A stretch of DNA of 64,000 nt from an uncultured Pseudomonadota bacterium (lineage in GTDB: Bacteria; Myxococcota_A; UBA796; GCA-2862545), in contig CAJXTB010000026.1 in the NCBI GenBank assembly GCA_913061235.1, positions 1 to 64,000 on the forward strand, read 5' to 3'. Below the pieces are notes generated by a model. That model was not told the origin of the DNA and searched no databases. It was given only the letters and a program-made list of their open reading frames with translations. This document shows positions 47,691-50,826 of the stretch, piece by piece. The first letter of the stretch is position 1. Every line of letters begins with the position of its first letter. The position numbers and the translations under genes were made by a program.

Positions 47691-49310
47691 TCAGTTGATA
47701 GGGTAGCGAACAATGACGATGCCCGAGCCGCCGGTACCACCTGCACCACCTGAACTACTCACAGTCGAGCCGGCGCCACCGCCACCGCCGGTATTGGGCG
47801 TGCCCGCGCCACCGGACTGATAGGTACCGGGTGCGCCGCCAGTACCGCCGCCGCCGACACCGCCATACCCACGACCATTCGCCGGATTGTGCGAACCACC
47901 GCCACCGCCACCTGCGTAGTAGGTTGGCGTTCCGGAGATGTCGACCTGCAGTCCGGGGCCACCGTCGCCAATCTCACCGCCAGACGTACCGGCGATTCCA
48001 GCGCCGCCAGCACCGCCGCCGCCACCGCCCGCATAGGGATTGTTATGGCCGAAGCCGCCATTGTGTCCCTGACCAACGACCCCGCTTCCGCCTACGTTTC
48101 CGTACCGTCCGCCACCGCCGCTTCCGCCATTTCGCCCCACTCCGCTGGGGTCCGAGCCACCGCCGCCGCCGCCCTGTACCGACAGGACACCAAACGACGA
48201 CGCTTGTCCGTCGACGCCCATGCCACCGCCACCGCCACCGCCGCTGCCGCCACTGCCGATGACCACACTGAAGGTCTCGCCTTGGCTCACGTCCAGCGAG
48301 GTGACGTACGTAAGACCCCCAGCACCGCCACCGCCGCCTGAACGACCGCCACCACCGCCGCCGCCGGCAACGAGCAACACATCGACCATACCGTCGGCCT
48401 GTCCAACCTCAAACGTGCCGTTGCTTGTGAAGGTGTGGATACGGTAGCCATCCATGTCCACGACAGTCCCGCCAGTCGCTTCAAGAACGCATCCCTCTGG
48501 CGGCCAGCTGTCTCCACGGAAGACAACGTCAGAGCTGCCGACCGTCGCCCCCGCACAGACCGTCGCATTTGCGCGAACCACACCCGTTACAGTCGCACCG
48601 GCCTCAACGGTGGCACCACGACCGACACGTGCACCGTCGAGCACTTGAGCACCCGACAGAAGCGTGGCCTGCTTGCGCACTCGAGCCGTCTCCGCCACAA
48701 AAACGTCGGAGTGAATCGTTACCCCAGGTCCGACAACTCCAAGGATGTCGGTCGCCTCGCCTGCGTTGGGGGCGTCGGCCACCGTGCTGCTGTGCGCGAT
48801 GATGGCTGCCGGGCCCAAGTAGGTGAAGTTTCCGAGCTCGACGAGATTACCGACAGTCGCGTTGTCGTCGAGGGTGACATCAGAGCCCAGGTCCGCGCCG
48901 TAGCCCACTGTGACGCCGTCGCCGGTTGTCAGGCGAGCACCGGCGATGACCGAGCGCAAAATTGCAGTGTCCAGCCCCAAGACGTGGTCCGCACCCAGGA
49001 CTGACTGGCGACCGACCACCGTACCCGCCCCGACCGGAAGGGGCTGTGTGGTGTGGGCTACCCAGCCTTCCAAGATGGCACGGTCCGAGATGTGTACATC
49101 ATCGAGGGCCACGAAAGGGCCGATGGACGACTGCTCACCGACAAAGGTGCCTGCTACCGTGGTGACTGTGGGATCAAGGGAGGCGGTCTCGGAGATACAG
49201 GCGCCGTTCGCGGCAAACTGTGCATCTTCGCATCCATCTTCGTTCAGATCTTCCGCCCAAGCGAGAGGGGCACCGACGACTATCGCACTCAAGACCCAAA
49301 GATACCGCAT
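47691..49310 (-). CDS. Secreted hexapeptide-stalk protein with glycine-rich head
   Basis: A 539-residue exported protein. The signal peptide (cleavage after PLAWA) is followed by the acidic cap DLNEDGCEDAQF and a left-handed beta-helix of hexapeptide repeats to about residue 270, sharing WVAHTTQPLPVGAGTVVGR and LGADHVLG with the pair at 7855/9547. The head (residues about 295-539) begins YRIHTFTSNGTFEV and VDVLLVAGGGGGGG, then a long Gly-rich repeat and ends GTGGSGIVIVRYPIN. That ending is the signature of the glycine-rich adhesin domain. GGGGGGAGAAATCTG precedes the ATG. Confidence 0.83.
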   Translation of the reverse strand: MRYLWVLSAIVVGAPLAWAEDLNEDGCEDAQFAANGACISETASLDPTVTTVAGTFVGEQSSIGPFVALDDVHISDRAILEGWVAHTTQPLPVGAGTVVGRQSVLGADHVLGLDTAILRSVIAGARLTTGDGVTVGYGADLGSDVTLDDNATVGNLVELGNFTYLGPAAIIAHSSTVADAPNAGEATDILGVVGPGVTIHSDVFVAETARVRKQATLLSGAQVLDGARVGRGATVEAGATVTGVVRANATVCAGATVGSSDVVFRGDSWPPEGCVLEATGGTVVDMDGYRIHTFTSNGTFEVGQADGMVDVLLVAGGGGGGGRSGGGGGAGGLTYVTSLDVSQGETFSVVIGSGGSGGGGGGGMGVDGQASSFGVLSVQGGGGGGSDPSGVGRNGGSGGGGRYGNVGGSGVVGQGHNGGFGHNNPYAGGGGGGAGGAGIAGTSGGEIGDGGPGLQVDISGTPTYYAGGGGGGSHNPANGRGYGGVGGGGTGGAPGTYQSGGAGTPNTGGGGGAGSTVSSSGGAGGTGGSGIVIVRYPIN

Positions 49311-49614: not shown

Positions 49615-50826
49615 TTAGTCCAGCTCACACCCGACCATGTGGATGTACGGCATGGTCACATCCACCGAGGCCGGGCCGCTGGCGGCGGCGGTCTGACCGG
49701 AGATGGTCGTGGTGTGCGCGTGGGCCCCGGTCGCAGCGGAGGTGAATGCAGCGATGTTCAGGTCGTGTTGGTGGTTAACGCTGACGCCACTGGAGGTGAA
49801 TGCCCCAATGTTCACGCTGTGAGCATGGTTACCAGCAGCCTGGGTGTTGTGCCGAACCGCATTCGGGCCGTTGTCTCTACCGTAAGAGGGGCCAACACCG
49901 CCAGACACGTTCCAGTCGTCTTGTAGCGTTGCAATCCCGTGGCTGTGGTTGCCGGTTGCGTTGGTGTTGGTGTTTGGCGGGTCCACGCTGTGTGTGTGGT
50001 TGGCATTCTGGCTTCCGCTTCGCGTGTTTGGCGGGTCCACGCTGTGTGCGTGGTTTCCAGCCGACGAGGACGAGGCTGTTGCCGAGCTCACTGAGTGGCC
50101 ATGGCTCGGGGCTTCTGTGATGGCGCGGCCTCCACCGTCCGCGAGCGCGGCGCCTACGGTGTCTCCAGCTGAGGCAGTGGAGGTCGCTGCCACGACGACA
50201 CGACCGCGAAGTTCGGTTTTCTCGCTCCAACCACTTGGACAGGAGCCCTCGAAGTACGCGATGAGACCGGGTGCTGTTGCCATGCCTGTTGTGGCGTCGT
50301 CGCCGGGGGCCGCCATCAACATGTTGGACCAGCCACCCGGACGGCAGCCCTGGAACGTGCCACCATCCCAACGAATCTTGCCGTAGTCAGCGGATCCCGC
50401 GCAGGTTCCGGTTGTCTCCGTCTCAAGCTTCAGGTCGCCGACGGTGACGTCGCCAGAGACGCTATTCGCAATCAATGAGCGTGCTGCAACCGGCACGCTC
50501 GACAGGCGCTGACGCGGCCCAATGGGGTTTCCGTCCACCAACACCTGTGCATAGCGGACGTCTGCTGCAATCTCGCCGGACAATGGCGCTGTGCCGTCCT
50601 GACCGAGCTGCAGCGTTGCGTAGCCACCCTCGAGCATTGTCTCGAAGGACTCGGACCACAGCGGGGCGCCGGCACCATCGTCTGCGTACAGGTCCACGGT
50701 CAACGTTCGGCTGCCTTCGATGGGTAGCCCTGACGCGTCCAACAGTCGGACTTGGTGGCTCATCACCACATCCTCCGCGTAGGCGGGCATGGCTAGCAAC
50801 AGAGCAATTAGGGTGAGTAGGCGCAT
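49615..50826 (-). CDS. Phage-fibre-like secreted protein with seven HxH motifs
   Basis: A 403-residue exported protein (signal peptide RLLTLIALLLAMPAYA, GGAG site before ATG 50826). Residues about 20-135 are a beta-rich domain seen in other predicted surface proteins (VRLLDASGLPIEGSRTLTVD, LSSVPVAARSLIANSVSGDV). From about residue 185 it resembles phage tail-collar or fibre proteins (PGLIAYFEGSCPSGW). It then carries seven HxH motifs in repeats such as GNHAHSVDPPNT, NHTHSV, GNHSHG, NHQHDL and GAHAHT, and ends MPYIHMVGCELD. In the T4 long tail fibre tip, HxH motifs bind iron in a trimeric needle. No phage gene is nearby. Confidence 0.72.
   Translation of the reverse strand: MRLLTLIALLLAMPAYAEDVVMSHQVRLLDASGLPIEGSRTLTVDLYADDGAGAPLWSESFETMLEGGYATLQLGQDGTAPLSGEIAADVRYAQVLVDGNPIGPRQRLSSVPVAARSLIANSVSGDVTVGDLKLETETTGTCAGSADYGKIRWDGGTFQGCRPGGWSNMLMAAPGDDATTGMATAPGLIAYFEGSCPSGWSEKTELRGRVVVAATSTASAGDTVGAALADGGGRAITEAPSHGHSVSSATASSSSAGNHAHSVDPPNTRSGSQNANHTHSVDPPNTNTNATGNHSHGIATLQDDWNVSGGVGPSYGRDNGPNAVRHNTQAAGNHAHSVNIGAFTSSGVSVNHQHDLNIAAFTSAATGAHAHTTTISGQTAAASGPASVDVTMPYIHMVGCELD
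49971..50054 (-). repeat. In-frame 30-base direct repeat in the HxH gene
   Basis: Bases 49971-50000 and 50025-50054 are identical but for one base (TGTTTGGCGGGTCCACGCTG begins both). They encode the HSVDPPNT repeat of the HxH protein and point to recent in-frame duplication. Confidence 0.7.

Follow-up and report, generated by a model that had tools for sequence, protein, structure and literature searches.

Gene and genomic context

The DNA analysed here (64,000 nt in full, hereafter the window) encodes on its reverse strand, at 49615-50826, a protein of 403 residues (P0001), whose open reading frame lies where the first-pass annotation had placed it. The start codon at 50826 has GGAG 5' of it and opens a Sec signal peptide of residues 1-17 (MRLLTLIALLLAMPAYA/ED; 50776..50826, reverse strand), and the stop codon occupies 49617-49615 on the same strand. 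The cleavage-site residues A15 and A17 are nearly invariant in an alignment of 50 paralogues, and the Sec signal proposed from the sequence earlier is borne out, P0001 being predicted to be secreted. The signal peptide is followed by a beta-rich N-terminal domain (residues ~18-130; 50437..50775, reverse strand), supported by matches within the genome and to the Bdello_MAT_N family and proposed as the base of a fibre, and by a linker (residues 131-183; 50278..50436, reverse strand) with the segment CxGSxxYGKIRWDGGTFQGC.

Among the neighbouring genes in the window no phage genes were found, in agreement with the first-pass annotation: the neighbours encode LigB, YceI, LysR, ABC transporter, amidase, MopE-like and CIA30 proteins. 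No tRNAs were found in the window, and the G+C content of the P0001 gene is that of the adjoining genes. A 16S gene was looked for in the assembly and not found; the MopE-like protein is a mere hint of a Myxococcota-like bacterium. Downstream, the adjacent co-oriented gene (47691..49310, reverse strand) encodes a secreted protein of 539 aa, in which hexapeptide (left-handed beta-helix) repeats precede a glycine-rich end (Pfam Hexapep, 2.5e-14; Gly_rich_2, 2e-21; PHROG 2295, a phage family of unknown function, 9.5e-55). It is possibly a companion fibre of P0001, and its phage-like glycine-rich end is a caveat to the description of the locus as phage-free.

HxH motifs and the predicted fold-back needle

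The C-terminal half of P0001 carries seven HxH motifs, at residues 242 (HGH), 259 (HAH), 277 (HTH), 294 (HSH), 334 (HAH), 352 (HQH) and 369 (HAH), i.e., at intervals of 17, 18 and 17, then 40, then 18 and 17 residues, which sets a group of four apart from a group of three. These motifs hold 14 of the 17 histidines of the protein. Shuffles of the mature sequence (n = 20,000) yielded 0.70 HxH on average and 5 at most, and when the His-rich tip was shuffled alone, 4 of 50,000 shuffles reached seven. The seven motifs are more than chance, and the earlier count for this half of the protein stands (residues 242-371, regularly spaced).

Around the motifs we delineated, all on the reverse strand, a short collar-like region that aligns with the phage tail-fibre collar (residues 184-241; 50104..50277; PGLIAYFEGSCPSGW...LRGRVVV...), a putative ascending arm of a needle with HGH, HAH, HTH and HSH at 17-18 residue steps (residues 242-296; 49939..50103), a head proposed as receptor-binding tip from identity comparisons with other heads (residues 297-333; 49828..49938), a putative descending arm with HAH, HQH and HAH (residues 334-371; 49714..49827), and a C-terminal return segment kept in bacterial relatives of the tip (residues 372-403; 49618..49713; ...VDVTMPYIHMVGCELD). 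The putative needle is flanked, as it is in gp37, by the patterns PGxIxxFxxxxPSGW...LRGR in the collar and VDVTMPYIxxxxC in the return segment. P0001 itself has no match above the gathering cut-off to the Pfam Phage Tail Collar family (PF07484), which is matched by a relative, L013 (2.3e-20), and by the paralogue L042.

In an antiparallel fold-back needle, the outgoing and returning motifs interleave, and the counts in the two arms must therefore match within one. Of 33 bacterial and phage tip clusters, in each of which the head was taken to be the longest gap from one motif to the next, 29 had counts on the two sides of the head that differed by at most one (null: mean 9.4, maximum 20 in 100,000 draws) and 26 had exactly n and n-1 (from 3/2 to 8/7), figures that are descriptive rather than strict probabilities because the clusters are related. 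The repeat lengths of the two arms also correlate (Spearman 0.73 for the same clusters), with repeats of 17 residues in the bacterial class and of 12-13 in most phages. The interleaved model of P0001 places the single 18-residue step of each arm on one shared rung; the corresponding register test over all tips gave 19 of 28 matches vs. 12.95 expected (p = 0.013), and an alternative register for the arm spacing, tested on the tips, was unsupported. Arm balance and matched repeats together constitute, at the level of sequence, the signature of a fold-back topology. Two tips from viral contigs (L133 and L137) break the balance, with 10/6 and 4/2 motifs, and phage tips of this type may have another needle layout.

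Monomer models (AlphaFold) reached a pLDDT of 47 for the tip and 40 for the full-length protein, with moderate confidence only in the collar strands, the last strand and the strands of the N-terminal domain. In this weak model of the tip (pLDDT 47) the return segment holds the sole confident C-terminal strand, as would be expected if the chain end returned to the collar. When this model was compared with known folds, it matched only generic beta-sandwiches (Z ≤ 4.4), which is uninformative.

Relationship of the tip to phage fibres

A profile built from five tips matched T4 gp37 (PDB 2xgf) at 3.2e-7. Because HMMER flagged composition bias, we rebuilt the profile from four bacterial sequences only; it scores the T4 gp37 tip at 36.3 bits, vs. 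at most 5.7 bits for 500 shuffled T4 tips with the HxH kept in place and at most 2.9 bits for 500 full shuffles. By profile comparison, the tip of P0001 is homologous to that of gp37 beyond composition, and this homology, together with the fold-back signature, upholds the likeness to the T4 long-tail-fibre tip first noticed from the motifs. In T4 gp37, HxH motifs lie at 883, 915 and 929, then at 966, 980, 989 and 998. Its collar is formed by residues 811-881 and 1010-1026, and H929, reported as an iron ligand beside the head, is like its partners an essential, iron-binding histidine (PMC6957217). Comparable HxH-Fe sites are known from several phage and pyocin fibres and from phage spikes (PMC6116203).

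Relatives of the tip were found in Flavobacteriales MAGs (L013 and L014), viral contigs, phages and other genomes of the same phylum. Most of those in known phages are annotated as proteins of the tail or tail fibre (the L013 tip protein has matches in 529 phage records), and viral contigs bear the tip family inside tail-fibre genes. A tblastn search of phages with the P0001 tip alone gave no match, the related L013 being needed as a bridge. A phmmer search of the PDB with full-length P0001 returned MS2 coat proteins only, which we judged a composition artefact.

A genome-wide family with a common N-terminal domain

Residues 1-165 of P0001 match 91 places in its own 7.2-Mb genome, and a profile of 50 N-terminal domains found 109 matches there (E ≤ 1e-5); ~102 of these are strong and span almost its entire length. 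The other genomes of the class that were searched hold 0-13 matches each, and two genomes elsewhere in the phylum (G134 and G239) ~20 each. The domain is predicted to contain beta strands (residues 24-97; pLDDT 74-82 in confident blocks, without an alignment). Among the 90 longer paralogues the N-terminal domains form one cluster, and the C-terminal parts fall into 48 clusters, 37 of them singletons. These ends include fibrinogen-like GGGWT (28), COLFI (9), collagen (4), glycine-rich (3) and RCC1 (2) types, and single cases of LamG, Collar, C1q and TNF; two paralogues match the profile of the gliding protein AgmC. The first-pass annotation had regarded a secreted metal-needle protein as unusual: cell encoding, a secretion signal and a gp37-type tip were indeed found, but the protein is not an isolated case, its tip being one of the types borne by a secreted mosaic family of ~100 members.

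Several observations concern single members of this family. RCC1-type propeller ends, an unusual tip fold, were assigned to L081 and L033 from their C-terminal sequences. Genes of the family stand in tandem groups of three (at L041, L044 and L033 in the same genome), which suggests local duplication followed by tip replacement. Paralogues with an in-frame stop (G000:C41:10196, C46:11906, C10:266468 and C4:134) are probably pseudogenes or assembly errors.

The commonest match of the family is NCBIfam Bdello_MAT_N (NF053851), reached by 50 of 89 paralogues at E ≤ 0.01 (best 2.4e-10) and by none of the proteins of 14 control genomes. P0001 itself scores 13.8 bits (E 0.038) and the best paralogue ~40 bits, and wherever a score is shown it lies under the curated cut-off of 60 bits; we therefore call the family MAT-like and do not assign it to that NCBIfam subfamily. 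With scores below this cut-off, the N-terminal domain of P0001 is best described as a putative distant relative of the Bdellovibrio MAT N-terminal domain. A search of the PDB with the N-domain profile returned ATP synthase fragments, which were judged spurious. MATs carry a beta-rich domain of ~130 aa after the signal peptide, and Bdellovibrio bacteriovorus HD100 has 21 of them, described as surface-exposed trimeric fibres with exchanged tips, one of which binds prey glycans (PMC10769870). Literature searches on fibrinogen-like predator proteins and other MATs found nothing beyond that paper.

Exchange of heads between genera

At least three further genera of the phylum also have this N-terminal domain fused to an HxH tip (L108 in G134, L110 in G167 and L111 in G213). 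The head of P0001 is 60% identical to that of the G134 protein and the N-terminal domain 26%, and a sibling in the same genome as P0001 (C5:51756) has a head unrelated to that of P0001 and resembling those of G213 (53%) and G239. With the P0001 head exchanged and the sibling head found elsewhere, the head behaves as a cassette, which would fit a receptor-binding role. As judged from these identities, the parts of the fibres evolve separately. One further protein (L112, at G019:C176) joins a signal peptide straight onto an HxH tip, without the N-terminal domain, and on its sequence is an alternative base for the HxH needle. The suggested search for homologues with signal peptides was thus productive, in the own-genome family, in the three fusions and in L112.

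Interpretation and alternative explanations

We read P0001 as a surface-displayed, trimeric MAT-like adhesin in which a metal-pinned needle presents a receptor-binding head, and give this reading a probability of roughly 0.7. The common N-terminal domain would hold the protein at the cell surface, and the C-terminus would form a gp37-type tip, in which each chain leaves the collar as a needle strand, folds into a small head at the distal end and returns as a second strand. Along the needle axis, HxH motifs from the two strands would alternate, each of the three chains giving two histidines per metal ion, with one ion per level and seven levels in all, by analogy with the seven irons held in the needle of T4 gp37. 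The metal would be iron, as in the HxH-Fe sites of T4 gp37, pyocin fibres and phage spikes. It is tempting to speculate that the head loops recognise a molecule on a different surface, most probably that of another cell such as prey, a target and a role in predation that we draw from the parallel with MATs. One cell would then carry ~100 such fibres with differing tips.

Since the tip belongs to a phage-fibre family, with 529 phage records matching L013 and viral contigs bearing it in tail-fibre genes, P0001 might be a relict prophage tail-fibre gene, or a recent phage capture, that by chance retained a start codon and a signal-like N-terminus. No phage genes surround it, however, its N-terminal half comes from a secreted family of ~100, the identical fusion recurs in three other genera and its G+C content is that of the adjoining genes, and we consider this origin very improbable and already nearly refuted. 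HxH pairs bind metals generally, and P0001 has a match to Pfam YmaF (PF12788) at 13.5 bits (E 0.11), under the gathering cut-off of 27 bits; a His-rich extracellular metal scavenger or store, in which HxH would take zinc, iron or copper for uptake and no needle would form, might look similar. Such a protein would not explain the strict n / n-1 balance and matched repeat lengths of the arms, nor why phage fibres share its collar and return segment, and no metal-uptake genes were found among the neighbours tested, all of which makes this function improbable.

A closer alternative keeps the same fibre and changes its target, with the head binding siblings, matrix or surfaces (in biofilm, gliding or aggregation) instead of prey or another foreign cell. 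Many paralogue ends are lectin-like, collagen-like or fibrinogen-like, and the two matches to the AgmC profile point in the same direction; the size and diversity of the repertoire, by contrast, fit many targets, as argued for MATs (PMC10769870), and we hold binding to self or matrix to be rather unlikely. Beyond the adhesin reading of P0001 itself, we propose more tentatively, at somewhat less than even odds, that a non-viral bacterium bears on its surface more than 100 mosaic fibres. Among these would be a class with a phage-type metal-pinned needle that forms after Sec export, and its interchangeable receptor-binding heads would be exchanged as cassettes with phages as well as from genus to genus. 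If true, this would be a cell-borne counterpart to the receptor-binding arsenal of phages, would join the literature on phage metal needles to that on MATs in predatory bacteria, and would mean that a needle built in the cytoplasm in the case of phages can also be exported and loaded by a cell. With its ~100 members, the repertoire is also a ready system for mapping tip diversity onto target range.

Comparison with known systems

The tip of T4 gp37 (PDB 2XGF) shares with P0001 its seven HxH motifs, the order of collar, outgoing arm, head and returning arm, and a C-terminus that goes back to the collar. P0001 differs in being cell-encoded and secreted, in its head, in standing outside a tail-fibre operon, and in its layout of 4+3 motifs at 17-18 residue steps vs. 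3+4 at 9-14 (one 32) in gp37. Tail-collar/HxH fibres of Sinorhizobium, Pseudomonas and cyanophage origin, and IMG/VR contigs, share the tip family and the n / n-1 arms; unlike P0001, these are virion proteins in a tail-gene context, mostly with 12-13 residue steps, and no MAT-like N-terminal domain was seen in them.

MATs are typically ~1,000 aa long, and the own-genome proteins are shorter (median 379 aa); unlike MATs, they had no S74 domain in a Pfam scan. The HxH needle is likewise not among the MAT tips described in the part of PMC10769870 available to us. The traits in common with Bdellovibrio MATs are a signal peptide, a beta-rich domain of ~130 aa, exchanged tips and many paralogues: P0001 has the first two (from sequence, alignment and predicted strands), and the own-genome family has a constant N-terminal end with exchanged tips (90 proteins). 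The most striking part is the size of the repertoire, with ~100 copies in this genome vs. 21 MATs in HD100.
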